IMG/VR virus record: IMGVR_UViG_3300030426_000008
Coordinates: 1-28,497 of that record
Origin: a virus
Strand: one strand, 5' to 3'
Length of the DNA: 28,497 nucleotides
Below, in pieces: positions 5,530-14,159 of this stretch. Every line of letters starts with the position of its first letter. Positions within the stretch are counted from its first letter, which is position 1. The position numbers and the translations under genes are program-made. The notes beneath the pieces are model-generated. The model saw nothing but the letters and a program-made list of their open reading frames with translations. It made no database searches and was not told where the DNA came from.

Positions 5530-5909
5530 GCGTTCCCCCATGCTTCCAGCACTTGCGGCTGGTCCGTGAAAAGATAGAAGTTCAAGCGCGATCCGCGCCG
5601 GATCGTGTGGATCAGCGGCTGGTCGAAATCGCGGTCCACCGCGTCCCGAAGCCGGGATATGTGGACCGCGACGGAATTGGTCTTCGGATCGTGATCCTGT
5701 TCCCAGACGTGGCGGCGCAATTCGGCGGCGGTGATCGGGCGGTTCCGGTTCCATGCGAAATAGACCAGCACGTCCCATTCGCGCGGATGCAGCAACACGC
5801 GCCGCCCGGCGCGGCTGGCACGCCGGAAGATCAGGTCCAGCGTCAGATCGGCGACGTGAAGCTGGACCGTGGCGGCCGGAACGCCCAGGGCAGTGGCACC
5901 CGCGTTCAT
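5526..5909 (-). CDS. Orphan winged-helix regulator (OmpR/PhoB-type DNA-binding domain)
   Basis: 127 aa. Residues about 40-115 match the effector domain of OmpR/PhoB regulators: LHPREWDVLVYFAWNRNRPI (first strands and helix), then AAELRRHVWEQ, the recognition helix region NSVAVHISRLRDAVD, and the wing PLIHTIRRGSRLNFYL. The usual N-terminal phospho-acceptor receiver domain is missing; the front is only about 30 residues of unrelated sequence. The protein could thus bind DNA without a histidine kinase. The usual GxGY of the wing is replaced by RGSRLNF. It follows a LexA-type DNA-binding protein with a 4-base overlap. Targets may be phage promoters or host two-component regulon sites; this is inference. 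Confidence 0.85.
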   Translation of the reverse strand: MNAGATALGVPAATVQLHVADLTLDLIFRRASRAGRRVLLHPREWDVLVYFAWNRNRPITAAELRRHVWEQDHDPKTNSVAVHISRLRDAVDRDFDQPLIHTIRRGSRLNFYLFTDQPQVLEAWGNA

Positions 5910-6208
5910 GATGCTTCGCCCGCTGACGTGCCGAGTGGCACGAAATAGAGCGGTTCCCCGGCTGGACCGCGCGGGATCGACACGCTTGCCAGAACCTCTA
6001 TGGCCTGATGCCTGCCCGGCAGACGACGGATGCAGCCGCGTTCTTCCAGCGCGCCCAGCATTCGGGAAACCTGCCCCATGCCCGCAATCCCGCACGCTTC
6101 GCCGATCTGGCGATACTTGGGCGCAACGCCGCCGGATGCTTCGAGATAGCCCGCAATGAAGCGAAGGACGTCCATCTGGCGGGGCGTGGGCGAGACGGCG
6201 ACGTTCAC
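5906..6208 (-). CDS. LexA-type winged-helix DNA-binding protein without protease domain
   Basis: 100 aa. After VSPTPRQMDVLRFIAGYLEA the sequence follows the LexA N-terminal DNA-binding fold: GVAPKYRQIGEACGI, then VSRMLGALEERGCIRRLPGR. The S24 self-cleavage domain of full LexA is absent, so it cannot be inactivated by RecA in the usual way. I chose the GTG at 6208 because it overlaps the stop of the 34-aa gene as GTGA, the pattern used throughout this operon, and because upstream residues are low in family likeness. It could bind host SOS-type sites or phage sites; no operator of its own is visible. Winged-helix proteins of other families are an alternative. Confidence 0.82.
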   Translation of the reverse strand: MNVAVSPTPRQMDVLRFIAGYLEASGGVAPKYRQIGEACGIAGMGQVSRMLGALEERGCIRRLPGRHQAIEVLASVSIPRGPAGEPLYFVPLGTSAGEAS

Positions 6209-6309
6209 CGATCCGCCCCTTCCGCTTCGTGGAACAGGCCGCGCCATGCAGCGCCAGCGACGAAGCCGACGTTCAGGGCGACGATTGCGGTGATGATCAG
6301 CGCGGTCAT
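6205..6309 (-). CDS. Tiny single-span membrane protein (34 aa)
   Basis: 34 aa: one hydrophobic segment from about residue 2 to 22 (ALIITAIVALNVGFVAGAAW) followed by a short charged tail. It is too short for family recognition. The ATG at 6309 overlaps the stop of the preceding 69-aa gene by 4 bases and its own stop overlaps the next start as GTGA, so both ends fit the coupled operon. It would sit in the inner membrane. Small phage membrane peptides of this kind can act in superinfection exclusion or modulate host membrane enzymes; no evidence here picks one. Confidence 0.65.
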   Translation of the reverse strand: MTALIITAIVALNVGFVAGAAWRGLFHEAEGADR

Positions 6310-6515: not shown

Positions 6516-6661
6516 GCCATTGACCTTTCGGCTGGCACGCGACGCGCGCGTTCAGCGGCGCGGGACTGGGCGGCGATGCGACGGAGACGAAGGAAGTCTT
6601 CGCGTGCGGCGCAATGGGCGACAGGTGCCCCGTCGAAATAGGCGGCTTCGGAATAGATCAC
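6512..6661 (-). CDS. Small basic protein started by GTG (49 aa)
   Basis: 49 aa beginning MIYSEAAYFDGAPVAHCAAR and continuing EDFLRLRRIAAQSRAAERAR. The GTG start at 6661 overlaps the stop of the previous gene (GTGA) and its stop overlaps the next start (ATGA). Without this gene there would be an unexplained 140-base hole in an operon that otherwise has no gaps, which is the main reason for calling it. The second half is a strongly basic helix. No family recognised. Confidence 0.6.
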   Translation of the reverse strand: MIYSEAAYFDGAPVAHCAAREDFLRLRRIAAQSRAAERARRVPAERSMA

Positions 6662-6852
6662 GCCAGCCCCCAGATGCGAGCTGCGAAGCGGATGCCGTGG
6701 AAGACGAACAGAAGCGCGGTTGCCGCGATCACCGCATAGGCGAAGCGCGCCGTCAGCCGGTCAAGCCGGTGCGCCAGTTTGCGCAAGGCCAAGTCCTGTT
6801 CGGCTGGGGGGAGTTCCGCGAAGCGGAATAGGTCCGACAGTTGGTTCGACAC
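6658..6852 (-). CDS. Small single-span membrane protein, first gene of the leftward operon (64 aa)
   Basis: 64 aa from a GTG start at 6852. A strong ribosome site GGAGGA lies 7 bases upstream, which decides against the TTG a few codons earlier. The N-terminal half is charged (SDLFRFAELPPAEQDLALRK), followed by one transmembrane helix (AYAVIAATALLFVFHGI) and a short basic end. It is the first gene after the left operators, so its message should start near 6888, leaving a leader of about 35 bases. No family recognised; an inner-membrane location is likely. Confidence 0.75.
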   Translation of the reverse strand: MSNQLSDLFRFAELPPAEQDLALRKLAHRLDRLTARFAYAVIAATALLFVFHGIRFAARIWGLA

Positions 6853-6895: not shown

Positions 6896-6922
6896 CTAAT
6901 ACGGAGTGTATTAGTTAGTCAA
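6896..6922 (-). promoter_or_regulatory. Leftward early promoter (pL-like)
   Basis: On the minus strand TTGACT (6922-6917) and TATTAG (6901-6896) form -35 and -10 boxes with a 15-base spacer, one base shorter than the matching right promoter. Both boxes are embedded in operator half-sites, so repressor binding would block RNA polymerase directly. The first gene downstream is the GTG at 6852 with GGAGGA. The short spacer makes this a weaker match than the right promoter. Confidence 0.55.
6897..6913. promoter_or_regulatory. Repressor operator OL1 (TAATAC-N5-GTATTA)
   Basis: Perfect inverted repeat TAATAC GGAGT GTATTA, extended to CTAATAC/GTATTAG at 6896-6914. It overlaps the -10 box of the leftward promoter. 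Its centre is 23 bp from OL2, a spacing of two helical turns as in lambdoid operators. Confidence 0.8.
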
Positions 6923-7123
6923 TACCAAATGTATTAAAGGCACGATCCCCAGCATGATCGGCACGACATAGAGCGCGATCAGAAGCGCATCGCCGAAGGT
7001 GAGGCCGGAAAGCGGGCTGGGGCGGTCCGGCTGGGTTATCCGCCAGCGGACGTCATCAAGAACCACGGCGGCGATGGTGCCGACGGTGAGCAAGCCGAAA
7101 AGGAGATATACCCAGTTCATCAT
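6911..7123 (-). CDS. Two-span membrane protein next to the repressor (70 aa)
   Basis: 70 aa with two hydrophobic helices: VYLLFGLLTVGTIAAVVL near the start and ALLIALYVVPIMLGIVPLIH near the end, linked by a polar loop (DDVRWRITQPDRPSPLSG). The start codons ATG ATG at 7123 and 7120 lie 8 bases after the repressor stop and lack a clear ribosome site, so translation is likely coupled to the repressor. It would therefore be made in the lysogen. Small membrane proteins expressed with a repressor often act in superinfection exclusion; that is inference from context. The end of the gene contains OL2 and touches OL1. Confidence 0.8.
   Translation of the reverse strand: MMNWVYLLFGLLTVGTIAAVVLDDVRWRITQPDRPSPLSGLTFGDALLIALYVVPIMLGIVPLIHLVLTN
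6920..6936. promoter_or_regulatory. Repressor operator OL2 (CAATAC-N5-GTATTA)
   Basis: CAATAC CAAAT GTATTA differs from the consensus by one base. It overlaps the -35 box of the leftward promoter and lies inside the end of the 70-aa membrane protein gene. Confidence 0.75.
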
Positions 7124-7131
7124 AAGGCGGT

Positions 7132-7857
7132 CTATTCGGGGATCGGGTTCCTTGCCATGCGCAAAAGCCGCGAAGCGTGCGGCTGGTAAGAGCCTATCAC
7201 GAAGGCGATGACCTGGACATAGCCGTCGTCATCATGGTCCGGATCGGGCAGGCCGACTTCGATAGGTGCCTGAAATTCGGGCTTCGTGGACCGGGGAAGA
7301 AGCCAGGTGCGCCCGTCATCGTCGCGCTGGAATTCCTTCACCGTCAGTTCGCGCATTCCATCGGCGCGCTGGCGCTCCACAATGACAAGATCGCCGCTGG
7401 CGGGTTCTATCCCCAGATCGAAGATCGACAGGCAATCCAGCAACGTCCCCGGTGCGAAGACCTGATCCATTGAATGGCCGTCCACCCGCAAGCCGAAGCG
7501 GCGGGCCTTGGGGAAGGGTGAGGGACCGACGACGATTTCGAAGCGGTCCGACTGGGGCCATTCCGTCGTTTCCCGCCAAACGCCAGCGGCAACCGATCCC
7601 GTCACTTCCACGATCCTTTCACGGCTGGCTTCAGCCGGTGCAACCTCAACCTTGTCCAGCGCCAGAAGCCAGCCCGGATTGACCCGGAACGCCCTGGCAT
7701 ACCGCTTCGCCGCTTCGACCGTGATCCCGCGCGTCCCGTTTTCGTGGTGCGTGTAAGCCGGGGCGTTCCAGCCATAGGCGCGCGCCGCCGCCGACGCGCT
7801 TTCATAGCCCGCCGCAATCCGCGCCTTGCGCAACCGATCTGCCATTTCGTCCGTCAT
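7132..7857 (-). CDS. CI/LexA-type repressor with S24 self-cleavage domain
   Basis: 241 aa. The N-terminal helix-turn-helix domain (about residues 5-60) contains LRKARIAAGYESASAAARAY and the second helix area YTHHENGTRGITVEAAKRYA. The C-terminal S24 peptidase domain has the catalytic Ser129 in GHSMDQVFAPG and Lys174 in ELTVKEF, with a likely cleavage bond at Ala91-Gly92 (SVAAGVW). This layout means RecA-stimulated self-cleavage and so SOS induction of the prophage. The start at 7857 is chosen over longer readings, which would run into the operators; ATG at 7845 is an alternative. It is divergent from the Cro-like gene across three operators and should regulate itself through OR3, which lies just upstream of its start. 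Confidence 0.92.
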   Translation of the reverse strand: MTDEMADRLRKARIAAGYESASAAARAYGWNAPAYTHHENGTRGITVEAAKRYARAFRVNPGWLLALDKVEVAPAEASRERIVEVTGSVAAGVWRETTEWPQSDRFEIVVGPSPFPKARRFGLRVDGHSMDQVFAPGTLLDCLSIFDLGIEPASGDLVIVERQRADGMRELTVKEFQRDDDGRTWLLPRSTKPEFQAPIEVGLPDPDHDDDGYVQVIAFVIGSYQPHASRLLRMARNPIPE

Positions 7858-7864
7858 TGGCAGG

Positions 7865-7881
7865 CAATACACAATGTAATA
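7865..7881. promoter_or_regulatory. Repressor operator OR3 (CAATAC-N5-GTAATA)
   Basis: CAATAC ACAAT GTAATA is the weakest match of the five (two deviations). It ends 8 bases before the repressor start codon, the right place for negative autoregulation. It shares two bases with OR2. Confidence 0.55.
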
Positions 7882-7896
7882 ATACATGCGGTATTG
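7880..7896. promoter_or_regulatory. Repressor operator OR2 (TAATAC-N5-GTATTG)
   Basis: TAATAC ATGCG GTATTG, one deviation from the consensus. Its right half provides the first bases of the rightward -35 box (TTGACT). Its centre is 24 bp from OR1. Confidence 0.75.
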
Positions 7897-7921
7897 ACTT
7901 GGCTAATACGCTTTGTATTAA
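7894..7921 (+). promoter_or_regulatory. Rightward early promoter (pR-like)
   Basis: TTGACT (7894-7899) and TATTAA (7916-7921) with a 16-base spacer. The expected start of transcription falls at about 7928-7929, on the ATG of the Cro-like gene, so the message may be leaderless. Both boxes overlap operators OR2 and OR1. Confidence 0.65.
7904..7920. promoter_or_regulatory. Repressor operator OR1 (TAATAC-N5-GTATTA)
   Basis: Perfect TAATAC GCTTT GTATTA. Its right half provides the -10 box of the rightward promoter. Confidence 0.8.
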
Positions 7922-7928
7922 TGCCCCC

Positions 7929-8255
7929 ATGTCTCACCTGAAGCCCATCTATGCCGTCTGGGATCACAATGCCGAAGCGATGGCTTCGGACATTGGCGAA
8001 CCGGGCGTGAAAGTCCGCCAGTGGCGCAACCGGGGCAATATCCCCGCCGTTTACTGGCAGCGGATCATTGACGCTGCCTTGCGGATCAAGGGCCAGCGGC
8101 TGGACCTTTCCCAGTTCATCCCGCCCGATCCCGCGCCCGTCGTCACGCCTGAACGGATCATCGTCTGCGACGTCTGCGACCGGCGGGTGGATGAACAGCT
8201 TCCGAAGGCCTGCACCTTTGTCGATTGCCCGCATTCGCAAAGGGCGGCGGCATGA
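7929..8255 (+). CDS. Cro-like helix-turn-helix regulator with Cys-rich tail
   Basis: 108 aa. The first 60 residues match the small YdaS/Cro-like phage HTH family: AVWDHNAEAMASDIG, the turn and recognition region GVKVRQWRNRGNIPAVYW, and the helix QRIIDAALRIKG. The C-terminal 30 residues carry Cys80, Cys83, Cys95, Cys100 and His102 (CDVCDRR...CTFVDCPH), a probable zinc-binding knot not usual in Cro proteins. The ATG at 7929 has no ribosome site upstream and lies at the predicted transcription start. It is the first gene of the rightward operon and divergent from the repressor, so it likely shuts off repressor synthesis during lytic growth. It overlaps the next gene as ATGA. Confidence 0.85.
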   Translation: MSHLKPIYAVWDHNAEAMASDIGEPGVKVRQWRNRGNIPAVYWQRIIDAALRIKGQRLDLSQFIPPDPAPVVTPERIIVCDVCDRRVDEQLPKACTFVDCPHSQRAAA

Positions 8256-8431
8256 TGGCTTCCCTTCTTCAGTTCCCTGCGAACGCGCACCACGGCATTC
8301 AGCCGCGCGTTCCGGGTCGCACGCCCGGCGGGGCTTCCCCCCCGATCCCCCAGCCCCGCCGGGCACATAACCGTCTTCGTGTTCCATGCGCCGACAATGC
8401 GCGCCGCGACGGGGCTTGCACATGGAAATGA
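8252..8431 (+). CDS. Small Pro/Arg-rich protein, unknown function (59 aa)
   Basis: 59 aa starting MMASLLQFPANAHHGIQ and then strongly Pro/Arg-rich (TPGGASPPIPQPRR). It overlaps the Cro-like gene by 4 bases (ATGA) and the next gene by a few bases, which favours real translation. The composition, however, is that expected of low-information GC-rich sequence, so the call is moderate. No domain, signal or metal site. Confidence 0.5.
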   Translation: MMASLLQFPANAHHGIQPRVPGRTPGGASPPIPQPRRAHNRLRVPCADNARRDGACTWK

Positions 8432-8868
8432 TGCCCGACTTTTCCGTCCCCAGCGTAAAAACGCTGATCGGCGACACGCTGCGCCTGTTCGTCGGGCATG
8501 GTCGCCGCATTTCCTGGGCGGACCTTGCCGCCGCCACCGGGGACAAGGAACGCAAGCTGCGATCCTATGTCGAGACGGACGGGCCGGAAATGCCGCTGGA
8601 CGTGTTCATGCGCGTCTTCGCTATCCTGCCACCCGATGCCTTCGCCCGCGTCGCCCGCCACATGGGTTTCGGCGCGGAGCCGCTGGACGTCTGCCCCGAT
8701 GCGACCGTCCTTCGCGCGCTGTCACAATCCGCCCGGCTGGTCGCCGACGGAAACGAGTTTCTGGAAGACGGACGGCTTTCGCCGCGCGAGCGCGCGCAGC
8801 TCGCCGAACGCGCATCCGCGCTTCTTCCAGTCCTGCAATCCATCGCGGGGAGCGGTTCGGCGCATTGA
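8422..8868 (+). CDS. Probable early regulator (CII-position helical protein)
   Basis: 148 aa from ATG 8422, or 146 aa from ATG 8428, which overlaps the previous stop as ATGA. The sequence is helical: SVKTLIGDTLRLFVGHGR, then ISWADLAAATGDKERKLRSY, resembling a helix-turn-helix where AAATG-KERKL would be the turn and recognition helix. The C-terminal half (LSPRERAQLAERASALLPVLQ) suits an oligomerising helix. It lies in the position of the lambda CII activator, directly after the Cro-like gene. Function as an activator or second repressor is inferred from place and fold impression only; no named family was recognised. Confidence 0.7.
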   Translation: MEMMPDFSVPSVKTLIGDTLRLFVGHGRRISWADLAAATGDKERKLRSYVETDGPEMPLDVFMRVFAILPPDAFARVARHMGFGAEPLDVCPDATVLRALSQSARLVADGNEFLEDGRLSPRERAQLAERASALLPVLQSIAGSGSAH

Positions 8869-12305: not shown

Positions 12306-12865
12306 CGGACGCACTGATCTGTTCCGATTGCGGCACTGCGCTGGCACCTTCGAAGCAACGCAAGGGCACGCGCTGCAAGAGCTGCACCGCACGGGCCATG
12401 TCGCGCAACCCGGCAACGCGGGCGAAGATCAGCGCGGCCATGCGGAAGAACTGGTCCGATCCCGATCAGCGCGCCGCGCGCGTGGCGAGCATGACGGAAG
12501 CCAACCGCCGCCCGGACATGATCGAGCATCGCCGGGCGCTGGGCAAGGCGCTGAACAATATAGGGCGCTTCGCCCGCCCGCTTCCCGCCGGGCACCCTTC
12601 GCGCGTCCAGGCGGGCCGGACGCTTACCGAACGGCGGCTGGCATGGTGCCCGCCAGCCTATCGCCCGCTTTATGCCCGCCTGACGGAAATCGACGGCTTC
12701 CGGGCAAAGGAAGCGCGGGCAATCGTGGAAGATCAGATCGCATCCGATCTTGCCGCCATGCGGAAGGGGAGCCTGTCGCCCAGCCAGTTCATGGCGGCGC
12801 GGGAAGCCGCGCGCTGGATCAGGGAACGCGCCGCCGAAGAAGCGGCAAGGCAGGGAACATCATGA
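12302..12865 (+). CDS. Zinc-finger phage protein with NUMOD-like repeats
   Basis: 187 aa from GTG 12302, overlapping the RusA stop by 4 bases. A four-cysteine finger opens the protein (Cys7, Cys10, Cys25, Cys28; CSDCGTALAPSKQRKGT). It is followed by NPATRAKISAAMRKNWSDPD and VASMTEANRRPDMIEHRRAL, short repeats that resemble the DNA-binding NUMOD modules seen beside homing endonucleases. No nuclease domain follows; the rest is helical (LTEIDGFRAKEARAIVEDQI). It probably binds DNA in the replication module. An origin-binding or helicase-loader role is possible by position between RusA and the methylase, but not shown. Confidence 0.75.
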   Translation: MTDALICSDCGTALAPSKQRKGTRCKSCTARAMSRNPATRAKISAAMRKNWSDPDQRAARVASMTEANRRPDMIEHRRALGKALNNIGRFARPLPAGHPSRVQAGRTLTERRLAWCPPAYRPLYARLTEIDGFRAKEARAIVEDQIASDLAAMRKGSLSPSQFMAAREAARWIRERAAEEAARQGTS

Positions 12866-13716
12866 CGAAACCTTCGCGCCCGGTGCTGCGCTGGCACGGC
12901 GGCAAATGGCTATTGGCACCGTGGATCATTGAACACTTCCCGCCTCACCGTGTCTATGTCGAACCGTTCGGCGGCGCGGGGTCCGTGCTGTTGCGCAAGC
13001 CGAAGGCCTATTGCGAGGTCTATAACGACTTGGACGGCGACGTCGTGAACCTGTTCCGGCTGTTGCGTCAATCAGACGCGGACCGGCTGGTCGAACTGAT
13101 CCGCCTGACGCCATTCGCGCGCGAAGAATTCGTCGCGGCCTACGAAGCGTGCGACGATCCCCTGGAAAGGGCGCGGCGCTTGGTCGCGCGCAGCTTTATG
13201 GGCTTCGGGTCCGGTGGAGCGACCGCGAACAGCACGGGCTTTCGTTCGAACAGCACGCGATCCGGCACGACGCCCGCCGAAGATTGGGGCAACTATCCTG
13301 AAGCCTTGGAAGCCGTGATCAGGCGCATGAAAGGCGTCATTGTCGAGAACCGCCCGGCGGTGGACGTAATGCGGCAACACGACGGGCCTGAAACGCTCCA
13401 CTACGTCGATCCGCCCTATCTTCCGGAAACCAGGTCGAAGTCCAGCGTCGGTTCGACGACGCCGAAAAACACCTATCGGCACGAACTGACGGTGGAAGAC
13501 CATATCGAGCTTCTGGACGCGCTGACGGGCCTTTCCGGCATGGTGATACTGTCTGGCTATCCCGCGCCGCTATACGATGATCGCTTGCGCGGCTGGCAGC
13601 GCATCGAGCGCGCGGCCTTGGCTGACGGTGCCCGTGCCCGGACGGAAGTTCTCTGGCTGAACCCCGCCGCCGCTGCAAAGTCAGATCAGCCCAGCCTGTT
13701 CGGGGAAGCGGCATGA
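12862..13716 (+). CDS. D12-class (Dam-like) DNA adenine methyltransferase
   Basis: 284 aa. Motif order fits the D12 class: RWHGGK near residue 10, SAM-binding EPFGGAGSVLL (34-44), NDLDGDVVNLF, and the catalytic DPPY (183-186), then VILSGYPAPLYDD. It would transfer methyl from SAM to N6 of adenine in a specific DNA site. No restriction gene accompanies it, so it is an orphan methylase, as common in phages, and probably shields phage DNA or marks the origin. The reading frame is open further upstream, but the ATG at 12862 overlaps the stop of the previous gene by 4 bases and begins the conserved part. Confidence 0.93.
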   Translation: MTKPSRPVLRWHGGKWLLAPWIIEHFPPHRVYVEPFGGAGSVLLRKPKAYCEVYNDLDGDVVNLFRLLRQSDADRLVELIRLTPFAREEFVAAYEACDDPLERARRLVARSFMGFGSGGATANSTGFRSNSTRSGTTPAEDWGNYPEALEAVIRRMKGVIVENRPAVDVMRQHDGPETLHYVDPPYLPETRSKSSVGSTTPKNTYRHELTVEDHIELLDALTGLSGMVILSGYPAPLYDDRLRGWQRIERAALADGARARTEVLWLNPAAAAKSDQPSLFGEAA

Positions 13717-14159
13717 AACTGGTCGCCGCCCCTATTTCGTTCAGGGACGCCGCCGCGTTCGTGAAGGTGCATCATCGCCACCATACGCCCCCCGTCGGTC
13801 ACAAGTTCAGCATTGCGGCATATGCGGACGGCGAACTTGTCGGCGTTGTGATCGTCGGACGTCCCGTCGCCCGCCGCCGTGACGATGGGTTCACCCTGGA
13901 AGTGACGCGGCTTTGCACGAATGGGCATCCGAACGCCTGTTCCTTCCTCTATGGCGCGTCGGCGCGTGCGGCCTTCGCTTTGGGTTATACCCGGATCGGG
14001 ACATATATCCTGAAGTCCGAACCCGGCACGTCACTTGCCGCCGCTGGCTGGAAGGTCATTGCCGAAACGCCTGGAAAGTCGTGGTCCGTTCCGTCGCGCC
14101 CGCGATCCGACAAGCATCCGCTGGAACCGAAGTTGCTGTTCGAAAGGACGGCGGCATGA
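13713..14159 (+). CDS. XF1762-family phage protein (GNAT-like)
   Basis: 148 aa. The sequence ISFRDAAAFVKVHHRHH, then PPVGHKFSIAAYADGELVGV and VIVGRPVARRRDDGFTLEV, is the pattern of the XF1762 family of phage proteins. The order of strands (HKFSIAAY, LVGVVIVG, TLEVTRL) with a later FLYGASARAAFALGY helix reads like the acetyltransferase (GNAT) fold; the chemistry of the family is unproven. It follows the methylase by a 4-base overlap and precedes the initiator by another, so it is co-expressed with both. A link to DNA modification is possible. Confidence 0.85.
   Translation: MKLVAAPISFRDAAAFVKVHHRHHTPPVGHKFSIAAYADGELVGVVIVGRPVARRRDDGFTLEVTRLCTNGHPNACSFLYGASARAAFALGYTRIGTYILKSEPGTSLAAAGWKVIAETPGKSWSVPSRPRSDKHPLEPKLLFERTAA

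Follow-up and report, generated by a model that had tools for sequence, protein, structure and literature searches.

A probable lambda-type immunity switch with five operators in a sphingomonad-type prophage

Immunity regions with five operators have been described for the phages N15 and phiKO2, whose immB has three operators in the space between the repressor genes and another two immediately following the repressor gene (PMC4997575). The Cro protein of phiKO2 binds only OR3 (PMC4997575). In PY54, Cro also binds only OR3, and the cI and cro mRNAs both begin at the AUG (PMC4488713). The locus analyzed here lies in a stretch of viral DNA of 28,497 nucleotides (IMG/VR record IMGVR_UViG_3300030426_000008), which as a whole is called the window below. 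It has the layout of three OR and two OL sites known from N15/phiKO2 and, like PY54, cI and cro mRNAs that are predicted to be leaderless. It differs from N15/phiKO2 in its operators, which are of the form ATAC-N5-GTAT instead of the 16-bp T-A-N10-T-A, and in its repressor, as the window CI has the S24 residues whereas CB is without self-cleavage residues; in addition, the OL of N15/phiKO2 controls repA. PY54 differs in having a single operator. The Synechococcus-labelled phages Ssp-JY40 and Yong-M3-232, with CI 49% and Cro 63% identical to those of the window, show the same OR/OL layout with CGATAC-type sites, but their OR3 covers the cI start codon at a distance of 24 bp from OR2, and their neighbourhood has a tyrosine-type site-specific integrase whereas the window carries a serine integrase (723-2411). 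The Synechococcus-labelled phages PP438430 (locus L027) and OM868076 have a sphingomonad-type immunity region and may in reality infect a sphingomonad that grows alongside the cyanobacterium. No description of operators of this kind in sphingomonad phages, nor of a self-cleaving CI combined with the lambda PR register and overlapping OR2 and OR3, was found in the searchable literature (subscription papers outside its scope).

The window is a prophage of sphingomonad type, with RusA-like, Dam- and Mom-like, terminase, portal, protease, head, and connector genes. At 12328-14159 on the plus strand, a DNA adenine-type methyltransferase is followed by a Mom-like DNA modification protein, a pair possibly serving anti-restriction DNA modification.

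A sequence-only reading of this DNA had placed a 17-bp motif, TAATAC-N5-GTATTA, twice at a left and three times at a right promoter. All five sites (dyads, with no strand assigned) are present where that reading had put them. OL1 (6897-6913, TAATACGGAGTGTATTA) is a perfect dyad with 0 mismatches and overlaps the -10 region of the putative leftward promoter PL, and the edge of OL2 (6920-6936, CAATACCAAATGTATTA, 1 mismatch) forms the PL -35. On the right, OR1 (7904-7920, TAATACGCTTTGTATTA) is again a perfect dyad with 0 mismatches that overlaps the PR -10, the last three bases of OR2 (7880-7896, TAATACATGCGGTATTG, 1 mismatch) start the PR -35, and OR3 (7865-7881, CAATACACAATGTAATA) overlaps OR2 by 2 bp and also the putative cI -10. 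With 2 mismatches OR3 is the weakest of the five, as had been proposed. The centres are 23 bp apart in the OL pair and 24 bp apart in OR1-OR2, which agrees with the distances reported earlier for the main pairs, and 15 bp apart in OR2-OR3.

The putative PL (6896-6922, minus strand) consists of a -35 TTGACT (6922-6917) and a best -10 TATTAG (6901-6896) with a spacer of only 15 bp; this -10 is poor at such spacing, and the register is kept in relatives. The putative PR (7894-7922, plus strand) has a -35 TTGACT (7894-7899) and a -10 TATTAA/ATTAAT (7916-7922), its start would coincide with the cro ATG at 7929, and its register, taken by the same ruler as that of lambda, is also conserved in relatives. 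A candidate cI -10, TATTGC (7864-7869, minus strand), lies within OR3, 6 nt upstream of the cI ATG. A strict sigma-70 consensus scan of the region detected no promoter, PL and PR included. No clear Shine-Dalgarno sequence was seen before cI or cro of the window, and both mRNAs probably are leaderless.

The cI gene (7132-7857, minus strand; coordinates correctly given from the outset) encodes a repressor of 241 aa with an HTH and a Peptidase_S24 domain, and its recognition helix (32-40) contains Thr36. The Ala-Gly cleavage motif and the Ser/Lys residues are present, which predicts self-cleavage. The best fold matches of its structure model are lambda repressor structures, and a search of the PDB by sequence gave nothing at E<=0.01. 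The cro-like gene (7929-8255, plus strand), probably leaderless, encodes 108 aa with the helix VRQWRNR and a C-terminal Cys4 tail. No Pfam family is assigned to the protein; its model has a confident helical core, the nearest solved fold is Xfaso 1 Cro (a weak match, E 0.36), and a profile search against the PDB returned weak Cro-like matches only. The tail (8170-8250, plus strand, CDVC...C...C), common among relatives only to L153 and L154, is possibly a zinc-binding add-on.

Between cI and OL, in the position of rex, lies a gene for a 70-aa protein (6911-7123, minus strand), probably a two-helix membrane protein. The OL2 sequence makes up the last codons of this gene, and the edge of OL1 contains its stop codon. 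L153 has a homologue that overlaps the operators in the same way; in other relatives the slot is empty or taken by different genes. The first leftward gene after PL (6658-6852, minus strand) has a GTG start with GGAGGA upstream, and the leftward operon includes a protein with a LexA DNA-binding domain alone (5906-6247, minus strand). A CII gene at 8422-8868 fell below the family cut-off.

Relatives of the window Cro have been fetched from genome and viral collections, and 26 loci were compared. Some viral loci were first found through a DNA pattern and the genome loci L153-L159 by protein only; the loci are partly non-independent (L169, L170, and L172 are near one another), and the IMG/VR contig L025, identical to the window, was excluded from the independent count. 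Where the genomes are named, Cro relatives come from Sphingomonas and Sphingobium and from one proteobacterial MAG. In all 26 loci the cro ATG is preceded by OR1 at 16-18 bp and by OR2 at 40-42 bp, with an OR1-OR2 spacing of 24 or 25, and an OL pair follows behind cI in all 26, with a spacing of 23-26 bp (23 only in the window). Because these places are fixed, the operators are regarded as conserved. In 24 of 25 loci the start codons of cI and cro are separated by 69-73 bp, and the sequence of the Cro helix does not vary among the loci compared. The window shows each feature by which the family is defined, namely a Cro with V-x-VRQWRNR, fixed OR1 and OR2, an OL pair, and a cI ATG about 72 bp away. 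Across the 26 loci the operators share the core ATAC-N5-GTAT and vary in the outer bases. The AT-richness stressed in the earlier reading is not essential, as most relatives use CGATAC-N5-GTATCG-like sites.

The third OR site is less uniform. Seven loci including the window have an OR3 15 bp from OR2 (<=2 core mismatches; chance per position 0.0018), so that the 2-bp overlap of OR2 and OR3, thought to be an unusual detail, is real but recurs in six relatives. Five other loci, three of which are near-duplicates, have a site 24 bp from OR2 that covers the cI start codon, and roughly half of the loci show no clear OR3. Locus L011 has a different DNA-binding domain with a 63% identical C-terminal part, and its operators are TCGGAC dyads, again three plus two. 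The CI relatives of L155-L159, L177, and L178 have the same HTH and operators and no recognisable S24 motifs; the DNA-binding cassette is joined there to different C-terminal domains.

Lambda and the window have been measured by one ruler, with the PR and cI starts of the window assigned from position only, its start codons being taken as transcription starts. On this basis OR1 is at -17 and OR2 at -41 of PR in both, and both have a 7-bp spacer and a -35 TTGACT that begins in OR2. Other likenesses are the divergent cI and cro with three 17-bp OR sites between them, OL sites at PL behind cI and a cargo gene, a leaderless cI (predicted in the window), and an S24 repressor with the lambda-CI fold. 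The operator sequence is unrelated to that of lambda, however, and the window Cro is outside the lambda Cro family; cro would also be without a leader, and there are two OL sites in the window as compared to three in lambda. The main differences are on the cI side. OR2-OR3 is 15 bp in the window and 23 in lambda, and the putative cI and cro starts are 72 bp apart as against 83, i.e., 11 bp or about one DNA turn shorter. Relative to the cI start, the operators lie at -19, -42, and -66 in lambda and at -16, -31, and -55 in the window. In lambda the activation position for cI is that of OR2, at -42 of PRM, and in the window this position of the putative cI promoter is empty. The lambda-like spacing proposed earlier thus holds to the base pair for OR1, OR2, and PR, but does not extend to OR3 and the cI promoter, nor to the number of OL sites. 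As OR2 is at -31 of the putative cI start, a lambda-like arrangement is claimed here and not the full lambda mechanism.

The five sites are very likely the operators of the immunity switch of this prophage, which probably works by mutual repression, with no positive autoregulation of the lambda type. By occupying OR1/OR2 and OL1/OL2, CI dimers would mask the -10 and -35 of PR and PL, so that neither cro nor the leftward operon would be expressed, and RecA-stimulated self-cleavage of CI would lift the silencing. Cro, probably made from a leaderless mRNA, would compete for the shared core ATAC-N5-GTAT and at OR3 would shut the cI promoter. Repressor bound at OR2 should hinder and not stimulate cI, because OR2 lies over the -35 region and touches OR3.

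Another division of roles, in which CI binds all five sites and Cro only OR3, so that cro is not self-controlled, has been shown for phiKO2 and PY54 (PMC4997575, PMC4488713). The shared layout of three plus two and the leaderless genes fit it, but the Cro helix does not vary and every site has the ATAC core, even in loci without a recognisable OR3, which makes this division unlikely for the window. Somewhat less likely again is the full lambda mechanism, in which CI at OR2 contacts RNA polymerase and activates cI, and OR3 shuts cI at high CI. Gene order, PR register, and the lambda-CI fold are all as in lambda; if cI is leaderless, however, OR2 and OR1 fall at -31 and -55 with nothing at -42, and the shortened geometry is fixed in the family. 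The shortened cI side, the place of OR2, and an OR3 that abuts and overlaps OR2 are the reasons for considering lambda-style activation of cI improbable.

At <=2 mismatches, TAATAC-N5-GTATTA occurs in the 28.5-kb window in exactly these five copies, all within 1030 bp; 200 Markov simulations of the window gave at most one site each, and some 295 permuted half-sites scanned in the window at the same threshold never gave more than one copy. At <=3 mismatches, 0.54 sites were expected from shuffles and six were reached in none of 100. The occurrence of the motif at the five places is thus far beyond chance. The host assembly (2.19 Mb, 78% complete) contains no further exact copy and no comparable operator cluster, and its sole other copy with 1 mismatch (0.5 expected) is inside glnA on contig C73; the many extra copies that would have spoken for a host motif were not found. 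Sites on C73, C43, C46, and C81 were inspected individually, and the pair on C81, with 3 mismatches per site and beside a housekeeping-type gene, was attributed to chance. That the five sites are chance dyads or belong to a host regulator, for which the glnA copy might be cited, is extremely improbable in view of the simulations, the genome count, and the conservation in 26 loci.

The outer operator bases vary with one residue of the CI recognition helix. Position 36 is Arg in 21 loci, with mostly CG, CA, or TG outside the core, and Thr in five (the window, L168, and L169/L170/L172), with TA outside the core. The association has a locus-level Fisher p of 1.5e-5, or 6e-4 with near-duplicates collapsed, both uncorrected for shared ancestry. 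The CI of L153 is 86% identical to that of the window and has Arg with CG; the differences are concentrated in the N-terminal domain (16 in the first 46 residues, 18 in the other 195), and the Cro helix is identical. The window and L153 form a natural pair in which a change of the CI recognition helix accompanies a change of operator, and which allows a direct test both of a specificity code and of whether positive autoregulation is needed. Among more distant CI relatives, most of those with Arg have CG (two do not), and there are two Thr cases without TA; given these four remote exceptions, the Arg/Thr rule holds in this CI/Cro family and is not universal.

The arrangement of two operators around a promoter has also been searched for as a DNA pattern, ATAC-N5-GTATTGAC-gap-ATAC-N5-GTAT, in which the operator edge forms the -35 element. 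It is present in at least 119 viral contigs, and two scrambled controls matched 1 and 0. Centre distances of 21-25 were permitted, and only 23-25 occur among the matches listed. Of 80 pattern-matched loci, 21 have a relative of the window Cro and 26 a relative of the window CI, and others carry other regulators; L035, e.g., has a lambda-family Cro (PF09048). This double-operator grammar thus seems to be common to several repressor families, probably because a TAT-containing half-site can serve as -10 and, when TGAC follows it, as -35. On one phage contig (L037, 4074-7965), four double-operator promoters stand ahead of four small genes, possibly a phage-wide regulon.

Tentatively, the window may represent a widespread class of prophage switch in which an operator half-site doubles as -10 and -35, leaderless master regulators start 69-73 bp apart, and cI has no positive autoregulation. 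Cro of such a class would read only the ATAC core and work across immunity types, and immunity specificity would be set largely by the CI helix residue that co-evolves with the outer bases. Conservation in 26 loci and a repressor fold like that of lambda CI strongly support the proposal itself that these are operators of a lambda-type immunity region, by which the lambda paradigm is carried over to prophages of sphingomonads. The comparison also separates the half of the lambda geometry that has been kept from the half that has not. The window has repressor and Cro genes in divergent orientation, three operators in the interval between them, OL operators, a CI fold with an S24 domain, and, if transcription starts at the cro ATG, the PR register. 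Overall, the system is best taken as a lambda-type switch that would follow lambda at PR but probably departs from it at the cI promoter.
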